This document shows positions 88-11,383 of a stretch of 58,773 nt of DNA, in pieces. Numbering within the stretch: position 1 is the first letter of the stretch; the number at the start of each line of letters is the position of its first letter. The translations under genes and the position numbers were made by a program. Source of the DNA: Candidatus Zixiibacteriota bacterium. Lineage in GTDB: Bacteria > Zixibacteria > MSB-5A5 > GN15 > FEB-12. The notes under the pieces were generated by a model, which was not told where the DNA came from, did not search any database, and saw only the letters and a list, made by a program, of their open reading frames with translations. Where the stretch lies: positions 1 through 58,773 of the forward strand of contig JAJRXM010000016.1 in assembly GCA_024276275.1 (NCBI GenBank), given 5' to 3'.

Positions 88-151
88 AGAGATTCTACCT
101 CGACTCTTGTCAGCATTCGACCCTCTTCAAAAAAGAGATTCTACCTCGACT
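88..151. repeat. 18-bp direct repeat, two copies
   Basis: The 18-mer AGAGATTCTACCTCGACT occurs at 88-105 and again at 134-151, 46 bases apart. It lies at the 3' end of a decayed TPR reading frame on the minus strand. It may be a duplication left by a rearrangement at the island border, or part of a dispersed repeat. No function can be assigned. Confidence 0.6.
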
Positions 152-333
152 AAAACCATTTCCTCTATTATAAAAAGAAGGGGCATCTGTTGGATTCTTA
201 ACTATAGCTATATCATAATTAATTATTGCTTCTTTATAGTTATCTATAAAGGCATAACCTAAACCTCTGTTATAGTAAAAATGCGATTGTTCAGAGTCTA
301 TCTCTATTGCAGTATTTAAGTCAATTATACCGT
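110..333 (-). pseudogene. Remnant of a tetratricopeptide-repeat protein
   Basis: The minus strand has a 74-codon open stretch bounded by TGA codons at 334-336 and 110-112, with no start codon at its head. Its translation includes YYNRGLGYAFIDNYKEAI and then DAPSFYNRGNGF, the classic spacing of TPR helices (Y.NRG.....Y.EAI..Y..AI...P). The fragment has neither end of a normal TPR gene, so it is a broken remnant. The 18-bp repeats at 88-151 lie in its 3' part. The rest of 1-468 shows nothing convincing. Confidence 0.55.
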
Positions 334-468
334 CTCAAGGTGAGATAAATGAAATTCTACCATTAATCAACACCTTGCTAGATAAAAAATGTTTACCTGG
401 TACAACTCCCCTTAAATCCTTAAACACTGTTGAACGAATTATGCTCGACTACGAAAAGGAGTCAAATT

Positions 469-921
469 ATGGAAAATTACCGTAAAAATTTATCCCAAGA
501 AGAACTTGATCAAGTAATGCTTCAATTACAACAAGATCAATCAGGAGATATGTCCATTGATTCACAACGAGTTATTGTTGTGGGTAATGACGGAAAACTC
601 AGAACTCTAAATGAGATTAAATCAGGTGTTACAATTGATCAACATTCTATGCCAATAACCAACCAAGATACTATAATCAGTGTTTTAGATTGTGGGCATT
701 CTGTAAAAGATTCAACTGATATAAGAATGTGCGATGAGGGGCATACCCTTTGTCCTAAACACGAACTTTACTATTGCTCAAAATGTCGTAAATCTCTCTG
801 CTATAAAGAAATTGAAGAAACTGATGACCATTTAGCTATTTGTAAAAAGTGTAATAGCTCTGCCGCTAAAAAAGTAATTATAGGTATTCTTATAGGATTA
901 GGAATCCTTTTTGGGATTTAG
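469..921 (+). CDS. Tail-anchored zinc-binding membrane protein
   Basis: A 150-residue protein. I chose ATG 469 because an AAAAGGAG ribosome site lies at 454-461; an upstream TTG at 430 is possible but has no such site. The N-terminal 60 residues are polar and Q-rich (LSQEELDQVMLQLQQDQ). The middle has a cluster of Cys/His pairs: CGH, CDEGH, CPKH, CSKC, C, H..C and CKKC, which suggests two zinc-binding knuckles of RING or zinc-ribbon type. The last 20 residues (KKVIIGILIGLGILFGI) form one hydrophobic helix, so the protein is probably tail-anchored with the zinc domain in the cytoplasm. It is six bases upstream of the HerA-like ATPase and almost certainly co-transcribed. The fold and zinc ligands are inferred from residues; the function is unknown. 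Confidence 0.7.
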   Translation: MENYRKNLSQEELDQVMLQLQQDQSGDMSIDSQRVIVVGNDGKLRTLNEIKSGVTIDQHSMPITNQDTIISVLDCGHSVKDSTDIRMCDEGHTLCPKHELYYCSKCRKSLCYKEIEETDDHLAICKKCNSSAAKKVIIGILIGLGILFGI

Positions 922-927
922 GATTTT

Positions 928-3021
928 ATGAAACATAAAATTTCCAAATATGAATTACTACAAACACTAATTGACCAATTAGGAATAACTGAGCCATGGG
1001 TATTAAAGGCGGTAAGAAGCCTTCAATATAGACATAATATGCTTCTTGAGAGAAAACTTACCGTCTTTATTCAACAATATTCTACTAGTCAACAACCAAT
1101 TGAAAATTCACCTTACATTCTTCCCACATCTCAAGCTGAATTACAGGGCGAGATGTCTATAGGGTATGTAATCGGAAGACCTCAAATTAGATGCAAATTA
1201 CCAATCACTCCTTTTGGAAAACATGCATTAATTTGTGGTTCGGTTGGATCAGGAAAGACAGTATTAACTTTAAATATTGCTGAACAGGCACTCCTCAACG
1301 GTGTTAAGGGAATTCGAATAACGGATCCAAAAGCAAATGAGTTCGTAATTTTAGCTCAAAAGTATCCAAATATTTTAATCCTTCATATCAAAAATATAAT
1401 TTTCAATCTCTTTGACCCACCGTTAGGAATGAACAGAGTTGCTTGGTACTCTATCATTGTAAATCATTTTGCCTTATGTTTTAATTTTTGGGAAGGTGGT
1501 GAGTCGCTTATTTTGGATTCACTAATCGAACTTTCACATATTAAAGAAGTAACGCTCACTAATTTGTATAATCACATAATGCATAAAAAAGGATATTCTC
1601 AAAAAGATCATGTTCTAAAATCAACGGTACTCTCAAGACTCAGAATGTTGCAACATCAGTTCGACTCACAAATTGAGAGAAGTTCAGATTTACTCGAAGC
1701 ATTAGCTGAGATTCCTCATATTATAATTGTAGAAGGATTACTCTCAGAAACTGAAAGCTGGTTTAACGAATATCTTCTCCTTTGGGATTTCTACTTTAGA
1801 AAACATAATCCACATAAAAGAACGCTTACACTCAGAATTTATGACGAATGCCAACATAGACTATTCAACAACCAAAAGGAAAAAAATAATCATTTCGGCT
1901 CAGCCACACTTATTTCAAAACTTGCAGACGAATCTCGAGCATTAGGACTCGGAATTGTGGCTATTTCACAAGAACCATCCTCATTGATAAAATCAATTTT
2001 AAATAATTCACATACTAAATTTAGTCTGCGTTTAGGATCAGGTCAGGAAATTAAAATAGCATCAGATGCTATGGGACTCAATAAAGAACAAAGAAATATG
2101 ATACACTATTTAGAAGTTGGAGAGACAATCATAAGGACAGGCACAGGCTATTTGGATCCATATCCAGTTAAAATAGATATGTTCCAATTTAAAAAAGCAC
2201 TTCCTGATCATGAATTTATAAGATATCAAGATGAGTATTGTACGACACTACTTAAAGAAACAATTCATACTCCTATTCCTATTGTGTCTGTGAATGAATC
2301 TTTAGATTCATATGAGCATAATATTGAGAAGAATAAAGATAAAAATATAATTAAATCTAGATATAAAAAGACAAATCGAAGTTTAATAGAAAACTCAAAA
2401 AAGATTTCAAAAAAACAAAACGATCTTGATTCTCTATTTACAATTTGGTTGAACTTACCCGTCCCATTTCTGTCACAAGGGCAGATTATGAAGAAAGCTG
2501 ATATTAAGAGTGGTTCTAAACAAGCAACTTTGAAGAATCAAGCTGTGCGTAGTGGTTTAATTATAACCCACAAGATACAAATTGGTCGAACTTATTCACT
2601 AATTTGGGAACCAACAGAAAAAGCATATGAAATGGTAGGCTTGAATAAACCATCACATTCTTCAAAGGGAGGCTATCTACATCAATTTATTGCTCATCAT
2701 GTCACTCTTTGGGCAAAGAAGCAAGGATTTGATCCTTCTATTGAATATTTTTTAGAGAATAAGAAAGCGGTGGATGTCGTTGTTAAAAGCGATGAAGCAA
2801 TGACGTTTTATGAAATTGTGATTTCAAAACCGTATGAGAAGGAACTCAACAATATTGAAAAAGATTTAGCAACATCACTACAACCTAAAGAGTTAATATT
2901 TTTGGTAGCTGACAATAAAATTGAAAAAATATTTTGTGATGTGTTACAAAGTGCTGATTTGTCGGAAAACGTTCGTTCAATTATTAAAATAAAACTTGCT
3001 GGAGATTTTATAGTCTCATGA
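928..3021 (+). CDS. HerA/VirD4-like P-loop ATPase with C-terminal winged-helix and nuclease-like region
   Basis: A 697-residue ATPase. Walker A is GSVGSGKT at residues 104-111. Walker B is LRIYDEC near 302-308. A polar AISQEPSS segment near 345-352 fits the sensor strand of the FtsK/HerA/VirD4 (DUF87) group. TDPKANEF after Walker A resembles type IV coupling proteins. Residues about 460-540 look like a winged helix (LSQGQIMKKADIKSGSKQATLKNQAV). Residues about 570-690 resemble a degenerate PD-(D/E)XK fold: VDVVV, then YEIVISK, then NNIEKDL. No transmembrane segment is visible, so membrane attachment could come from the upstream tail-anchored zinc protein. The stop overlaps the start of the excisionase-like gene by four bases, giving a three-gene operon. 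The role could be DNA transfer, element maintenance or defence; I cannot choose between these. Confidence 0.75.
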   Translation: MKHKISKYELLQTLIDQLGITEPWVLKAVRSLQYRHNMLLERKLTVFIQQYSTSQQPIENSPYILPTSQAELQGEMSIGYVIGRPQIRCKLPITPFGKHALICGSVGSGKTVLTLNIAEQALLNGVKGIRITDPKANEFVILAQKYPNILILHIKNIIFNLFDPPLGMNRVAWYSIIVNHFALCFNFWEGGESLILDSLIELSHIKEVTLTNLYNHIMHKKGYSQKDHVLKSTVLSRLRMLQHQFDSQIERSSDLLEALAEIPHIIIVEGLLSETESWFNEYLLLWDFYFRKHNPHKRTLTLRIYDECQHRLFNNQKEKNNHFGSATLISKLADESRALGLGIVAISQEPSSLIKSILNNSHTKFSLRLGSGQEIKIASDAMGLNKEQRNMIHYLEVGETIIRTGTGYLDPYPVKIDMFQFKKALPDHEFIRYQDEYCTTLLKETIHTPIPIVSVNESLDSYEHNIEKNKDKNIIKSRYKKTNRSLIENSKKISKKQNDLDSLFTIWLNLPVPFLSQGQIMKKADIKSGSKQATLKNQAVRSGLIITHKIQIGRTYSLIWEPTEKAYEMVGLNKPSHSSKGGYLHQFIAHHVTLWAKKQGFDPSIEYFLENKKAVDVVVKSDEAMTFYEIVISKPYEKELNNIEKDLATSLQPKELIFLVADNKIEKIFCDVLQSADLSENVRSIIKIKLAGDFIVS

Positions 3022-3242
3022 AAAACGGTTCAGAACAGCTGTGGACTATTGAGGAAGTAGCAGAATTTCTTCAAATAAAACCAAGTGTGGTGAAGTATTG
3101 GATATACAATGACACCATACCGTATATCAAGCTTGGTAAATATGTTCGGTTTGAGCGTTCTGAAGTATTAGCATGGGTGAAAGAAAACAAAAAGCAGAAT
3201 AACATGCTGAGTCGAGAAGATTTGAGACAGATTGGGGTTTGA
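3018..3242 (+). CDS. Excisionase-like helix-turn-helix protein
   Basis: A 74-residue protein made almost entirely of one MerR/excisionase-type winged helix-turn-helix (HTH_17): WTIEEVAEFLQIKPSVVKYW, a basic turn, then IPYIKLGKYVRFERSEVLAWV. Proteins of this size and type act as recombination directionality factors or small regulators in integrative elements. Its ATG overlaps the stop of the ATPase gene, so it is the third gene of that operon. The element's tyrosine recombinase lies at 10045-11175, so a role as Xis for that enzyme is plausible but unproven. Confidence 0.75.
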   Translation: MKNGSEQLWTIEEVAEFLQIKPSVVKYWIYNDTIPYIKLGKYVRFERSEVLAWVKENKKQNNMLSREDLRQIGV

Positions 3243-4240: not shown

Positions 4241-5515
4241 CCTGGTTTCTTACCAATTCTAATATTTCATCAACATCGTATTTTTCTGCGATATTACATT
4301 TTTCAAGGGCATTTTGAATCACTTTTACCATTTTCGCTCTTTTAATGTATGCCCCTTCCATCCATCAGGCTTATTTTTCAAAATTAAATCAAAGAGAGTA
4401 ATCGATAGTTTTTCGTCTTGATCAAGATTGTCATAAAATGCTCTCATGGCAAGTGTCTTTATTGTTTTTGGGTATTTGTTGCCACCTTCAGAGGATTTGA
4501 GTGATCTTAAATATGCTGTAATTTTTTTAAGATATTCTTTATAGCTGAGTGCATTTTCTCTTCGTTCCTTAATAATTACATCAAGAAGTATAGACATTTT
4601 TTCATAATATTTAGGGTTGGAAGGGGTTTCATCAATGATGAGTTTACGAACATTATTTTCAATTACCTGAGCAACAGACTCTCTATCTTTTTTTATGTGT
4701 GAAGGTAGTTTATCAATAGCATTTTCACCTTCCTTAACAATCAAATCAATGATAGTTAAATCATCAAAAGCACTAATTGTTTTACTTTCATCGGCATCGA
4801 TATAAGCATCAATGAGGTGACGCATCGCTGGTTCGTATGCTTTCAAGTCGATATAATCACCACTGGCTAATTTAATTTCAGAACGTACTTTCTCAAAATA
4901 CACAACTTCTTCTTTAATTTTTTGAGCTTCTTTTTTAGAAAAACCAGCTTGCTCCATATCTCCTGCTAAACTTACATACGCTCTTATGAGCGTTGATGTT
5001 AATTTATAGAGCGTAATACGACGAGGTTCATGTTCTTTGAGGTCTAGAGAGTTTTCCGTGTTACCACAAAAGTATTCAATAAAGTCGCTGGATTCTTTGG
5101 GTGGTTTAACTGATTCGCATAAAGCCCTAATTTTTTCTAAAGCAGTAACTAAATTTTCTTTTCCTGTTTTTATACGATCCTTTAAAAGACCTTCTACATC
5201 ATCAACATCAAAATTATCGAATGCATCTGATGTATAATTTTTAACTGCTTGGTCAAGGCTTTTAAATAAATCTTTATAGTCAATTATATATCCATAATCT
5301 TTATCTTCTCCATCAAGACGGTTCACTCGACAGATTGCTTGAAAGAGTCCATGGTCTTGCATGTTTTTATCAATATAAAGAAAGGTTGCAGGAGGGGCAT
5401 CAAATCCTGTTAGCAGTTTATCTACAACAATAAGAAGCTTCATTTGTCCGGGTTCTTCAACAAATTGTTTCTTTACTTCCTTTTCGAATATATTAGGGTC
5501 TTTTCCATTGAGCAT
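4230..5515 (-). pseudogene. hsdR: HsdR C-terminal part (type I restriction subunit), frameshifted
   Basis: Reads in the HsdR frame from KKMLNGKDP through EEPGQMKLLIVVDKLLTGFD (helicase motor domain 2) and the coiled C-terminal domain. The frame ends early at 4325 (GHTLKERKW). The normal HsdR tail continues in the next frame as MVKVIQNALEKCNIAEKYDV and then VRNQDEF, ending at 4230 inside the start of the metallopeptidase gene. One extra base in the four-T run at 4331-4334 would restore the frame. The upstream end is also out of frame with the fused N-terminal half at 5473-7509. Without the middle of the motor and with two frame breaks it should not yield an active restriction subunit. Confidence 0.85.
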
Positions 5516-7509
5516 TTTTTGAGACCATGACCTTGGAAAAGTTCATAATATTTACAAGCTTCATAAATACTTCCTGCGACCAAGATTGCATTTCCACGAC
5601 CGCTAAGTAAACGGTCATTTTTTTCCATATCTAAAAGGATGTCTGCAACTATCTTGTTTAGTCTTGATTGTGAGCTCAAGACTTTTTGCATAGTTCCCCA
5701 TCTTTTTTTAAGTTCTCTTTTTGCTACATCAGTTAATCCTTTGGTTTTAGCTTCAAACCATTGATCAACTTTTTCAGGGGAGCTAAGTCGTTGATTGATT
5801 TCTCGTGCTTCGTATTGAAGGTCAAGAACCACTTTATCATTTACTGCTTCATCATATTTATATGTATGAATGTATTTTCCAAAAGTTTTGATACTATTTC
5901 TTTTGTCCGCTTTAAGAAGAGGAGTCCCAGTAAAACCGACAAACACTCCTTTAGGTAGGATGGTTGTCATCGCCTTGTGAAGTTTTCCTGATTGTGTTCG
6001 ATGACATTCATCAACAAAAACATAAATATCACCTTTCGCCTTAAAGTCTTTAGGCATTGAATCTCTTAGTTCAGCTAAAAAATCATCAACATCTGTTGAA
6101 GTCTTGCGTCCAAACTTATGAACAAGAGAACACATAAGCCAAGGTTCCGTTGTATTGAGTTTTTTAATGAGGTCTTTACCGCTTTTTGTTCGGTAAATAT
6201 CTTCTTTAACTCCTTTAAAGAAGCGTTCAATTTGATCATCAAGTTCTTGCCTGTCAGTAATAATTAAGACTCTTGAATTGGGAATATTTTCTCGAATCCA
6301 TTTAGCCAGCCAAATCATAGTAAGGCTTTTTCCACTTCCTTGTGTATGCCAAATGATTCCGCCTTTACGCTTTTTAAGATATTTTTGTGATTCCCTAACT
6401 CCAAAATATTGGTTATGTCGACATATCTTTTTAGTACCACTATCAAACACTAAAAAGTCATGGATAATTTCTAGTAGTCGTTCTTTATCGCCTAACTGAA
6501 GAAGAGCTCTATCGAGTTTATTTTTTACCGTAGATTTTTCTTTCCAACTCAAATAATATTTTTCAGGAGTCTCAATAGTCGCATAACGAAGTCCTTCAGT
6601 GTCGTTTCCTGCCATAACCAGCTGAATTGTTGAGAAGAATGGTTTAATAAACATTTCTTTTTGATTGTCTAAGTTTTGTCTTATGTCTTGAGCAACAGAA
6701 ATAGTACTTCGTTTTAATTCTATAACGGCAACGGCAATACCGTTTACATATAAAACAATATCTGGTCGTTTGTCGTGTATTCCAGTAATTGTTACTTCTT
6801 GAGCTATATAGAAATCATTATTGAGCCTATTATTCCAATCAATAAAATGAACTGTTTTCTTATGCTCACCAACTTTTTCCTTAATATCAGCACCATAGCG
6901 AAGAAGTGTATAGACTTCTTTGTTTGCTTCATAGAGACTTTTATTTTGGACATTTGATGCTTTTTGTAACTTCTCAGTTGGAGGAAGGGGTATTAATATT
7001 CTTTTAATATTTGTTTTGGATACTCCATAAACCTTCAGACCAGTAGCTAATCTATTATATTGATCTCGAACTACCTTATTAGAACTAATATACCCCTTAA
7101 AACCATCTACAAATGTATTTTTTTTTGATCTAAATAAAAATGTATGTAATCCCGAAAAAGCTTTAATTTTATTTATATTTGTTACTTCAACACTTTTACA
7201 AATCCCCTCATAATCTTCAGAAGCATCTACGATGATAAGATCACCATCTTTTAATAACGAGTAATGCTTTAACTTTAACTTATCTATTGTTGGTACAGTG
7301 TGCTTTGAAAAATCGAGGAAATAATTCCATTTTGTATGAATATCACCATAGTGGATATAAAAAATATCACCATTTTCAGTTAAATCACTTCTCGAATACG
7401 AGGCACTGGAACAGGAATCAAAAGCATCATCAAATGATATTAATTTCCAATCCTCAGGAATAACACCAACTTCTGTTTGTTTATATCCTGCCTTAACTTT
7501 TTCTACCAT
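5473..7509 (-). pseudogene. HsdS target-recognition domain fused to truncated HsdR
   Basis: A single 678-residue open frame joins two type I subunits. Residues 1-180 are one HsdS target-recognition domain (YKQTEVGVIPEDWKLISFDD ... NIKRILIPLPPTEK). From about residue 181 the sequence is HsdR starting some 60 residues inside that protein (LQKASNVQNKSLYEANKEVY). HsdR parts present: nuclease RPD and ELK (D250, E264, K266), helicase Walker A HTQGSGKS 388-395 and DECH 500-503. The second HsdS half and the HsdR start are missing, so a deletion joined the genes in frame near position 6970. The frame then ends after GHGLKKC, where about 45 residues of HsdR are missing. It overlaps the hsdM stop by seven bases. 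Confidence 0.85.
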
Positions 7510-9917
7510 GTAAAGCCCATCTTCTTCAAATGTCCATCAACTTTTTTAGTTAGTTTATCAATATTTTCAACCAACTTTGGCAGAGGTGTTTCATACCGTT
7601 GGGATAATTCTTTTATTCTTCCCGTAAGCGTTTGAGAAATCCGTTCAATTTCTTCTTCAACTTTATGATGAAGTGTAGCGAACCATTTATCATCAACTAC
7701 TAGTTCTTTTATTTCTTCAACTGTTAGGCTTTTATATTTCTTAAAGAGTTTTTTATCAAGTTCTTTTTCAACAACTTTAATTTTAGTTTTTAATGCTCCT
7801 TCGTTATCTATCATTACAAGATACTTCTTGATAATGTCTAACTCTTCAGAGAATTCTGGATTATCCTTTATCGCTTTTACACGATCTTTAATTGCTCCTT
7901 TAGTAATATCTCCAGATTTTCCTCGACATTCAGAAAACACATCATCTTCTGCCGTATGCTCTTCTTCAAAAGCGTCCTTTTCTTGAATAAGTATCTCTAA
8001 GTCGTTTTGCAAATCTTCAATTTCTTTTTGTTCTTTAGAAAAATACTTATTTATCACAAGCGGTTTAGGAATCAGATCACATTCCCAACCAGTTTCTTTA
8101 CCCTTTTTATTCAGTACTGGATTTATCTCAGCTTTCCAACCAATAAGAGCTATTATAAAAAGATCGTCTTGCATTGTTTCGAACCAATAAGTCATCATAT
8201 GTTGATACATATCATACTTATCAATGAGTTCAAGTTTAGAAAAACAATTAAGCATATCCTCAGAAATTGTATGAATCACTTCTTTTGGTTTACATTCAAT
8301 TTCAAGATTACGTAACAAACTCTCATTGTTCTTTTTCCATTTTTTGAATGCTTTAATTATTTCTTTTGAATACGATGAAAATTCAGCATGCTCATAGATG
8401 GTTGATTTAACTTTATCATTCTCAATTTTCAAAGAACTAAACCCTTTTCGTTTACTACTTGTAAACAAATCAGACTTCATTGTTTTATACACTTGCCAAA
8501 AACTCTCAAGCTTTTGTACATCATAATCTGGGATATCACCTTTTAGATGTGCTTCAATGTTTTGTAAATCTTCATCTTCTTGTGTATCAATATAGCGGGG
8601 GAGGTTTAAGTTGTAATCATTTTTGTCAACAGTTATTTCAGAGTAGGGAACCATGCGAGAATATTTTTCAAGTTCTAATTGTTTAGTGAAGATATCTACA
8701 ATTTTATGCATATCTCTCGAACGAAGCCGATTTTTATTACCATCTTTATAGAACCCTTTACTGGCATCAATCATAAAGATACCTTTTCTTGTTTCAGCAT
8801 TCTCTTTATCTAAAACAATAATACAAGCAGGAATACCAGTTCCATAAAAGAGGTTTGGTGGCAAACCGATAATCCCTTTTATGTATCCTCGAGTGATTAA
8901 ATTTTTTCGGATTTCATATTCTGCATTTCCTCTAAACAACACTCCGTGAGGAAGAATGACAGCACCTTTTGCTGTACTCTTCATTGATTTTATAATATGA
9001 AGTAAAAAGGCATAGTCACCGTTTTTAGCAGGAGGTGCACTTCCCCAATCAGCTGTATTAAATCTTTCAAAGTCATCATCTTCAGGTACGATACCACTAC
9101 TCCAAGATTTCATAGAGAAAGGAGGGTTAGCAACAACATAATCAAATCGTTTTAAAGAGCCATTATCTTCTTTGAATTCAGGTTCAGAAATAGTATTTCC
9201 TCGCCAAACATCAGCAAGTTCATGTCCATGCAGAATCATATTCATTTTTGCGAGTGCTCGAGTTGCTACATCATTTTCCTGTCCATATATTGTAACTTTA
9301 ACTTGAGCTTCGGCAGCAGCCTTAAGTAAGAGCGAGCCAGAGCCACATGTTGGGTCATAGACGGTGGTGTCAGAAGTTTTTGCTTTGTTCATGTTTATGA
9401 CTTTTGCCATAACTTGTGAAACTTCTGAAGGTGTGTAGAATTGTCCTTTACTTTTGCCAGACTCTGTTGCGAAGTGACGCATTAAATACTCGTACGCATC
9501 CCCTAAAATATCATCACCTTCAGCTTTATTTTTGCCAAAATCTAAGTCCTGAAATAAACCAATGAGCTTTGATAGCTTATTTTTCTTATCATTACCTTTT
9601 CCAAGTTTATCAGAATCATCAAAATCCGCTACATCGATTACATTAACAAGATCATTTGCTTCTGCTAAGACTTTAATGAGCTTATTAATACCCTCACCAA
9701 TGTCAGGCTTTCCTTTTAGAAGAACTAAATCATCAAAGCTTCCACCTTTGGGAACATCAATTAAAAACTCGGAATCGACTTTAGATTTATCGCTGACATA
9801 TTTTATGAAAAGAATGACAAGTACATAATCTTTGTATTGTGAAGCGTCCATTCCGCCACGAAGTTCATCACAACTTTTCCATAGAGAGCTATATAATTCA
9901 CTTTTCTTAATTGCCAT
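7503..9917 (-). CDS. hsdM: Type I restriction-modification DNA methyltransferase, M subunit
   Basis: An 804-residue HsdM. The N-terminal HsdM domain (residues 1-150) is followed by the adenine-N6 methyltransferase core, with S-adenosylmethionine motif DPTCGSG at 188-194 and catalytic NPPF at 264-267. The protein is longer than the usual 500-550 residues: about 350 extra C-terminal residues form a Lys/Glu-rich coiled-coil region, as in the long HsdM subclass. It is complete. Because the specificity subunit is reduced to one recognition domain fused to HsdR, modification by HsdM may be lost or changed. The start is close behind a weak GGGAAA site, and an 11-bp inverted repeat lies upstream. Confidence 0.95.
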   Translation of the reverse strand: MAIKKSELYSSLWKSCDELRGGMDASQYKDYVLVILFIKYVSDKSKVDSEFLIDVPKGGSFDDLVLLKGKPDIGEGINKLIKVLAEANDLVNVIDVADFDDSDKLGKGNDKKNKLSKLIGLFQDLDFGKNKAEGDDILGDAYEYLMRHFATESGKSKGQFYTPSEVSQVMAKVINMNKAKTSDTTVYDPTCGSGSLLLKAAAEAQVKVTIYGQENDVATRALAKMNMILHGHELADVWRGNTISEPEFKEDNGSLKRFDYVVANPPFSMKSWSSGIVPEDDDFERFNTADWGSAPPAKNGDYAFLLHIIKSMKSTAKGAVILPHGVLFRGNAEYEIRKNLITRGYIKGIIGLPPNLFYGTGIPACIIVLDKENAETRKGIFMIDASKGFYKDGNKNRLRSRDMHKIVDIFTKQLELEKYSRMVPYSEITVDKNDYNLNLPRYIDTQEDEDLQNIEAHLKGDIPDYDVQKLESFWQVYKTMKSDLFTSSKRKGFSSLKIENDKVKSTIYEHAEFSSYSKEIIKAFKKWKKNNESLLRNLEIECKPKEVIHTISEDMLNCFSKLELIDKYDMYQHMMTYWFETMQDDLFIIALIGWKAEINPVLNKKGKETGWECDLIPKPLVINKYFSKEQKEIEDLQNDLEILIQEKDAFEEEHTAEDDVFSECRGKSGDITKGAIKDRVKAIKDNPEFSEELDIIKKYLVMIDNEGALKTKIKVVEKELDKKLFKKYKSLTVEEIKELVVDDKWFATLHHKVEEEIERISQTLTGRIKELSQRYETPLPKLVENIDKLTKKVDGHLKKMGFTW

Positions 9918-10044: not shown

Positions 10045-11175
10045 TTACTTTATCACCACTTGATTAATTGCCTTTTTCATTTGCTCTTTGTATGTATGTG
10101 AATAGATTTTGGTCGTTCTTTCATCCTCATGACCTAATATTTCAGCGACTGTCGCCCTATCAACGCCGTTAATTTGCATGAGTGAACTAAACGTATGTCG
10201 TAAGTCGTGAACTCTGGTGAAATGTTTTAATCCAGCGTTCTCTGAAATGCGAAGAAGAGCATTGCGGAGCATATCGGTTGTGAATTGGTTTCCTTCAATT
10301 GATTTAAAGATGTAGCCGTTACGTTCTTTAATTCTATTTAAAATTGAAAGAGCAGTAGTATTGAGATAGAACTCTCTTTCATACGTTTTTGGTGTCCAAC
10401 CTGCTTTTGCTTGAATTTTTATAGTCCCATGTTTGAGATCAACATCATCCCAAGTCAGGTTGCATAATTCTCCTGAACGTAGTCCAGTGTTGAGTAAAAA
10501 TTGAAATACTTTTAAATATGATTTGTACCGAGTATTCTCTTTAGCCATTTCTCTTATCGTTTTAAGAAATAAATTACACGCTTGAGGGGTTAGAATTATA
10601 GGTTCTCTTTTATCTTTTGGTTTTAATTTCTTAACTTTCTTCGTTGGTACAATAGATATATACTCTCTATCTTTCGCCCAAATGAATGCACTTCGGAGAA
10701 CACTTAGTTCATAATTGACTGTTTGAGGTTTTGGGAGAATTTTCTTTTTATGAGTGCCAATTTTGTCACCTTCAGCAACAGTTTTTAAATCAAGCGATTT
10801 TAGTCGTTTCTGTTGATAGGCTTCTATAGTTTCTGTGTCAATTTTAGAGAGATATTTTATGTTATGTTTATACATCTTAAGAAAGGTTACAAAGATATTA
10901 ATTATCGAGATATATCGTTTTGCTGTATTGGTTGAAGTATGGAGTTTAATGTGTTCAGCATATTTTTCAAAGAATTCATCAACTCTTATGTCCTTAGCAT
11001 TGAATCCTATTTTTTCGAGTAGCTGAGAGTTCTCCAAAGAATCAACCTGCTTCTTTAAAGCAACCGCATTTTGTTTTGTACCAGCTTTTAGCCATTTATG
11101 CTTGCCATGAACAGAGACCACTACATAATATGTCTTTTTGCCAGTTTTATTTGATTTAGATTGTATACTTGCCAT
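10045..11175 (-). CDS. Tyrosine recombinase (island integrase)
   Basis: A 376-residue phage-type integrase. An N-terminal AP2-like arm-binding region (SKSNKTGKKTYYVVVSVHGK) and SAM-like core-binding domain precede the catalytic domain. The catalytic set is visible: TGLRSGEL (Arg), HDLRHTF (His and Arg), LGHEDERTTKIYSH (His and nucleophile Tyr). The gene reads away from the tRNA-Ser(GGA) 3' end, 123 bases from it, the usual position for the integrase of a tRNA-targeted island. It is probably responsible for insertion of the region left of 11.3 kb. Confidence 0.95.
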   Translation of the reverse strand: MASIQSKSNKTGKKTYYVVVSVHGKHKWLKAGTKQNAVALKKQVDSLENSQLLEKIGFNAKDIRVDEFFEKYAEHIKLHTSTNTAKRYISIINIFVTFLKMYKHNIKYLSKIDTETIEAYQQKRLKSLDLKTVAEGDKIGTHKKKILPKPQTVNYELSVLRSAFIWAKDREYISIVPTKKVKKLKPKDKREPIILTPQACNLFLKTIREMAKENTRYKSYLKVFQFLLNTGLRSGELCNLTWDDVDLKHGTIKIQAKAGWTPKTYEREFYLNTTALSILNRIKERNGYIFKSIEGNQFTTDMLRNALLRISENAGLKHFTRVHDLRHTFSSLMQINGVDRATVAEILGHEDERTTKIYSHTYKEQMKKAINQVVIK

Positions 11176-11294: not shown

Positions 11295-11326
11295 AAGCGG
11301 AGAGGCAGGGATTCGAACCCTGGATA
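11295..11326 (-). other. Putative attachment core at tRNA-Ser(GGA) 3' end
   Basis: This 32-bp segment covers the T-arm and acceptor 3' strand of the tRNA-Ser(GGA) gene plus three bases beyond it. It is identical to 51057-51088 in the other tRNA-Ser gene. It adjoins the integrase gene. Part of the identity is expected because serine tRNAs share these arms, so the exact crossover site is not resolved. The far att copy of the island is not in the window. Confidence 0.6.
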
Positions 11327-11383
11327 GGGGTTACCTATACACGCTTTCCAAGCGTGCGCATTCAGCCGCTCTGCCACCTCTCC
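11298..11383 (-). tRNA. tRNA-Ser (anticodon GGA)
   Basis: On the minus strand the sequence begins GGAGAGGTGGCAGAG and ends GCCTCTCCG, giving a seven-pair acceptor stem. The anticodon arm is CACGC-TTGGAAA-GCGTG with GGA as anticodon, followed by a long variable arm (type II tRNA) and the T-arm GGTTCGAATCC. The 86-base length fits tRNA-Ser. CCA is not encoded. An island is inserted at its 3' end. Confidence 0.95.

Follow-up and report, generated by a model that had tools for sequence, protein, structure and literature searches.

A conserved zinc-protein and HerA-type ATPase–nuclease gene pair, a candidate DNA-processing and transfer module of tRNA-Ser-targeted integrative elements in Zixiibacteriota

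A zinc-ligand protein and a HerA/VirD4-type ATPase, the latter fused to a winged helix and a PD-(D/E)XK-like domain, are a genuine gene module that is conserved in integrative elements of the Zixiibacteriota and has not yet been given a name. Its function rests on analogy with described systems: the pair would most likely process and move the DNA of the element that carries it, and we lean towards reading it as the DNA-processing and transfer module of tRNA-Ser-targeted integrative elements, composed of a fusion between a coupling ATPase and a divergent MOBC-like relaxase, together with a zinc adaptor. The pair lies at the left end of the window (the whole 58,773-nucleotide stretch analysed), which corresponds to contig C80 in a metagenome-assembled Zixiibacteriota genome of 3.39 Mb. 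The element is cut at left by the contig end, so that the gene set seen is its right part only; a remnant of a TPR-like gene sits at this end (positions 100–345, minus strand). The features of the module and its element are the following:

469–921, plus strand: zinc-ligand protein, 150 amino acids (ATG at 469, stop at 921; open reading frame and homologue conservation)
730–852, plus strand: conserved cysteine cluster C88, C103, C106, C111, C125, C128 (homologue alignment)
862–918, plus strand: hydrophobic C-terminal tail of the zinc protein (hydropathy)
928–3021, plus strand: HerA/VirD4-type ATPase fused to a winged helix and a PD-(D/E)XK-like domain, 697 amino acids (ATG at 928)
1237–1260, plus strand: Walker A (GSVGSGKT), G104-x5-K110 (G104, G107, G109 and K110 invariant in 16 homologues)
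1831–1848, plus strand: Walker B with catalytic E307 at nucleotide 1846 (alignment of homologues)
2410–2613, plus strand: winged-helix domain, residues 495–562 (model mca4d44190a54; MarR-type folds, Z about 9)
2674–2997, plus strand: PD-(D/E)XK-like domain, residues 583–690 (model, structure matches and invariant residues)
3018–3242, plus strand: excisionase-like HTH_17 gene (TIGR01764 excise, 1.9e-9; start overlapping the ATPase stop)
10045–11175, minus strand: tyrosine integrase of the element (Phage_integrase, 5.9e-30)
11297–11383, minus strand: tRNA-Ser(GGA), likely attachment site (18-base 3' end recurring on contig C79)

The zinc-protein ATG at 469 is preceded by an AAGGAG motif, and the start of the HTH_17 gene (3018) lies inside the ATPase stop, so that the zinc protein, the ATPase and the HTH_17 gene look like one operon and, as far as the sequence tells, are probably translated together. 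Full-length homologues at 36–39% identity in other genera argue that the pair is not due to chance. In all 12 Zixiibacteriota loci with readable upstream sequence (the window, L012, L013, L014, L015, L016, L048, L049, L050, L051, L052 and contig G071:C440), the zinc gene stands directly before the ATPase gene; at L022 and L047, which are contig ends, the ATPase shares its reading frame with a zinc-protein-like stretch. When 129 genomes of the phylum were searched with a profile, all 13 strong matches to the zinc protein (E below 1e-9) fell at these ATPase loci, with three weaker ones besides. Beyond the phylum, a cysteine-rich protein directly precedes the fused ATPase in three Verrucomicrobiota loci (L023, L140 and L141). 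The initial annotation had proposed the two genes as an undescribed pair, to be checked by a search for co-occurring homologues: they are found together in all loci where both are visible, their relatives include no known coupling protein with a known partner, and the pair thus stands as uncharacterised, conserved and co-occurring. Note that a conserved 380-residue protein with many hydrophobic stretches and no clear family match, a candidate membrane channel, is encoded upstream of the Verrucomicrobiota pair (L140 146–1288, L141 3487–4629). Note also that near-identical 660-residue ATPase–nuclease proteins, preceded by a conserved gene of about 220–240 amino acids, occur at three places in one genome (L057, L058 and L060 in G055), a possible multicopy element, and once in another (L059 in G054).

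The zinc protein of the window contains eight cysteines and five histidines. Its CxxC motif taken alone is barely beyond chance (shuffle 0.044); the cysteine pattern is kept in homologues at only 12–29% identity. The hydrophobic tail is present in two of 12 homologues, the window protein (2.08) and one other (2.71), and most of the remaining homologues end in a short basic/hydrophobic tail, often near KLFIDPFVE. Thus, of the clustered zinc ligands and C-terminal anchor originally described, the cysteine cluster is conserved and the tail is indeed there in the window, but a membrane anchor is not a general property of this protein. The structure model of the zinc protein is of moderate confidence (pLDDT 76.5, pTM 0.49).

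The motor residues of the ATPase are all intact, in agreement with the Walker A and B motifs first reported: 16 homologues, among them a second ATPase common in these elements, show no variation in Walker A, E307, R337 and Q348, and the protein is an FtsK-HerA superfamily ATPase with intact Walker motifs. Its DUF87/HerA match is barely over the Pfam cut-off (23.6 versus 23.2 bits), its best NCBIfam match is CedD, with CedD, HerA and mad8 as weaker kin, and a PDB sequence search returns the HerA core only (4d2i, 5.4e-10). The window ATPase thus matches DUF87, HerA and CedD, and is not recognised by the coupling-protein profiles TrwB_AAD_bind and TraG-D_C. No transmembrane helix is seen, the best 19-residue hydropathy being 1.49 at residue 255, as the initial annotation had stated. 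Plasmid and phage searches yielded no full-length homologue, only partial ATPase matches, and a viral contig search yielded no homologue.

Four loci have a split ATPase gene (L014 13129–13132, L050 11236–11243, L048 3949–3952 and L016 about 7400–7421), each time at the same point, after the Walker A helix and before the strand that precedes FDRK. The stop and start overlap or lie two bases apart and the relative frames differ, which argues against one programmed frameshift; the split ATPase of these loci looks like a translationally coupled two-gene motor. At least two changes are required on the tree to account for the split state, and the ATPase of L016 and L048 has an additional downstream break.

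The C-terminal part of the fusion was modelled from eight sequences (model mca4d44190a54), and the folded part is mostly above pLDDT 90. The winged helix noted at the outset is confirmed by this confident model, and its matches among solved structures are MarR-type proteins. Residues 583–690 run helix, three strands, helix, strand, which is the order of the PD-(D/E)XK core, and match 1y88 (the best, Z 10.6), 3dnx (9.1) and the repair endonuclease 2vld (8.7); the Foldseek listing also has CRISPR ancillary nucleases and an R2 retrotransposon protein. A viral structure library gave weak matches, mostly to unnamed proteins, with no MobC identified. The only invariant residues of the domain among 20 homologues from two phyla are H585, E606, D616, E629 and N642, which map to helix 1, strands 1–3 and helix 2 of the model in an active-site-like placement. 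The domain therefore looks like an enzyme and, judging from this conservation, is probably not a relic. Structure prediction, the check suggested for the nuclease-like fold, thus confirms that fold, but the degeneracy ascribed to the domain is unlikely given five invariant candidate active-site residues. The usual PD-(D/E)XK lysine, two residues past the strand-3 acid, is missing, so that nuclease activity is a prediction. Seven loci (L014, L015, L016, L022 and L048–L050) encode the C-terminal part as a gene of its own immediately after the ATPase gene, so that the window protein joins two units that are separate elsewhere.

The two-domain plan, with a winged helix ahead of a PD-(D/E)XK-like domain, is that of the MOBC relaxase TraX (PMC12857230), and it is shared by TraX of pAD1, MobC of CloDF13 and the protein described here; in the latter, however, no curated profile exceeds its cut-off, the lysine is off its usual place, the domain is fused to a motor, and nicking is predicted. 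The family matched most often is NF041423 (MobC replication-relaxation), in four of 20 homologues with a best E value of 9.8e-6. These matches are weak but co-linear; L023 and L141 have two matching stretches each, of which the best falls on the winged helix in the former and on the nuclease part in the latter. The matches reach 21.8–25 bits in homologues against a cut-off of 200, and the window protein has no match. Pfam Replic_Relax (PF13814) does not match the domain. In profile–profile comparison with Replic_Relax, the winged helix supplies the signal (E 2e-7), and the nuclease part on its own gives no significant match (0.044); for column-shuffled and reversed controls, the best whole-profile value was never under 0.2. 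The order H..D..E is common to the domain and Replic_Relax (H124, D176 and E193-x-D195 in the latter), in a part for which the nuclease-only profile comparison is not significant. Because the curated MobC and Replic_Relax cut-offs are failed and the profile signal is borne by the winged helix, we do not file the domain as a MOBC relaxase. Verrucomicrobiota carry this domain joined to ATPases that match TrwB_AAD_bind (1e-10 to 1e-12), and serine recombinases adjoin two of three fused-ATPase loci. A literature search on coupling protein–relaxase fusions and on MADS yielded nothing useful.

A second element type is seen on contig C76 of the same genome (L081 1367–6748 and 10582–12234). It encodes a double zinc ribbon plus hydrophobic protein, a canonical Replic_Relax protein (1e-21), a VirD4-like ATPase and an HTH_17-like gene, then ThiF/E1, a second Replic_Relax protein and a serine-recombinase-like gene; small genes of this element may be E2- and ubiquitin-like. 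This gene set parallels the module of the window in canonical form. Across the 129 Zixiibacteriota genomes, 15 encode Replic_Relax proteins that pass the cut-off.

The integrative setting and the excisionase-like neighbour indicated by the initial annotation are both found: the window holds a site-specific integrase, an excisionase-like gene and a likely attachment site at a tRNA. Every locus read far enough has both an integrase and an HTH_17 gene along with the pair, a tRNA-Ser adjoins the integrase of the window and those of L012, L013, L015, L016 and L052, and the recurring order is zinc protein, ATPase/nuclease, excisionase, (cargo), integrase. The 18 bases at the 3' end of the window tRNA-Ser are repeated on contig C79 ahead of a second integrase (L095 257–1672), which is 83% identical to that of the window and lies behind a partial tRNA-Ser end; this arrangement fits a tandem insertion. 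Repeats of tRNA 3' ends (at least 14 bases) were not found at the opposite end of the other elements in the stretches read, so that the ends of these elements are not defined.

A type I restriction–modification locus does adjoin the pair, as first noted, but it appears damaged (4325–7509), does not recur with the pair in other loci and falls outside the conserved module: a target-recognition half of HsdS is fused in frame to HsdR, HsdR is broken by a frameshift into two overlapping frames, and HsdM (7503–9917) looks whole. This locus bears on whether the pair might be a HerA–nuclease defence system that degrades invading DNA and is carried as cargo. In its favour are the restriction–modification genes beside the pair and weak PADLOC matches of the ATPase to HerA and mad8 (6e-15) and of the HTH protein to mad1; in Sir2-HerA and MADS defence, as here, a HerA-type ATPase is combined with an effector. 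However, the effector and the neighbours here are different: the effector domain has no Sir2 or DUF4297 match, neither it nor the zinc protein has a NurA match in Pfam or NCBIfam, and the conserved neighbours are an integrase and an excisionase, with no other defence genes. The mad1–mad8 set is incomplete, weak partial matches being confined to the HTH, ATPase and type I restriction–modification genes among the seven proteins scanned, and the same domain sits on coupling-type ATPases. A defence role, which lacks specific support, is thus less likely, and we regard it as rather improbable; of the transfer or defence setting initially envisaged, the integrative context of the pair, together with fusions of MobC-like and coupling-protein type, favours transfer or mobilisation.

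Many of the elements also encode a second HerA-like ATPase of about 440 amino acids (L012 14065–15396, L013 13248–14540, L014 5625–6959, L015 14296–15606 and L051 2786–4126), which matches TrwB_AAD_bind and lies mostly in a conserved block with coiled-coil, small winged-helix-like and degenerate N6-methyltransferase-like genes; it was not found elsewhere in the genome of the window, whose element is itself truncated by the contig end. A trio of E1 (ThiF), JAB and E2-like genes is next to the pair in L014, L016, L048, L050, L051 and L052. Assignment to the PRTRC cassette was considered and rejected, the ParB and ThiF matches being far below the cut-off. ParB and primase-like genes are present in some elements (L016), as would be expected if the motor and nuclease initiated or resolved replication or partition of the excised element instead of transferring it, and relaxases with extra recombination roles exist, TraX among them (PMC5714925). 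Yet ParB and primase are not constant neighbours, and a separate pumping ATPase would be unusual for an initiator; we consider such a role very unlikely.

Transfer of the element's own DNA, the reading that we prefer, is suggested by the IME-like gene order, the NF041423 matches and the fusions recognised by the TrwB profile, which together point to DNA processing for transfer. Published IMEs follow the order coupling protein, relaxase, excisionase, integrase, including those of the VirD4 + MobC (Replic_Relax) class (PMC5357655). The latter likewise unite an ATPase, a winged helix plus nuclease protein, an excisionase and an integrase in one chromosomal element, and differ from the present elements in that (i) the motor here is HerA/CedD-like, and fused to or directly before a much diverged nuclease; (ii) a zinc protein comes first; (iii) no helper type IV secretion system is detected; and (iv) the integrase is a tyrosine, not a serine, enzyme. 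Indeed, neither the VirB4 N-terminal domain (PF03135) nor TrbL (PF04610; TrbL/VirB6) was found in any of the 129 genomes of the phylum by single-family searches, which divergent forms may escape; both searches recover Caulobacter among the controls. No type IV helper is therefore visible, and the elements may use either a diverged channel or another route, as proposed for TdtA (PMC5365140). No oriT was identified, which counts against the transfer model.

The TdtA system is also the basis of a different reading, in which the pair would be a TdtA/NurA-like machine donating double-stranded DNA by means of a HerA-type motor and an end-processing nuclease, with neither relaxase nor type IV channel. 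In Thermus thermophilus, the HerA-like ATPase TdtA, together with a nuclease and a restriction–modification enzyme of a tRNA-inserted element, drives DNA donation (PMC5365140), and this element, ICETh1, resembles ours in combining a HerA-like ATPase, a nuclease (NurA-like there), an integrase and restriction–modification genes at a tRNA. The closest sequence kin of our motor are HerA and CedD, not VirD4, VirB4 and TrbL go undetected in the phylum, and several elements hold a second HerA-like ATPase, all consistent with such a machine. Against this, the nuclease is not NurA but belongs to another family and is fused, its winged helix and fold resemble MobC proteins, the zinc partner is undescribed in ICETh1, and no export pore was found; we hold this reading to be unlikely. 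The archaeal DNA import ATPases CedD and CedB (PMC11868833) likewise have a HerA-type core, but no CedA-type channel gene is recognised here, and CedD is described with a transmembrane domain and without a nuclease domain. Bolder, and in our view doubtful to a like degree, is the idea of a DNA transfer machine that is independent of type IV systems and encoded by the elements themselves, which would be made of one or two HerA-type motors (in some loci a two-chain motor divided between Walker A and Walker B), the fused relaxase-like nuclease, the zinc adaptor and small membrane proteins.

For the coupling ATPase–relaxase reading that we favour, the gene pair, its motifs, predicted fold, conservation, co-occurrence and element context are direct observations, and we infer from them the following course of events. 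The ATPase, as a ring-forming and presumably hexameric DNA pump of the FtsK-HerA superfamily, would act as the coupling motor. The winged helix and PD-(D/E)XK-like domain would work like a MOBC relaxase, recognising a site on the excised element, nicking or trimming it and handing the element DNA to the attached motor for transfer. The zinc protein may be an adaptor that brings the motor to DNA or to the membrane.

A motor that carries a relaxase-like domain would combine in one protein two conjugation steps usually divided between separate proteins. The domain also marks related Verrucomicrobiota elements that profile libraries leave unnamed, and a single gene pair offers a handle for testing transfer in a phylum in which no recognisable type IV secretion system was found.
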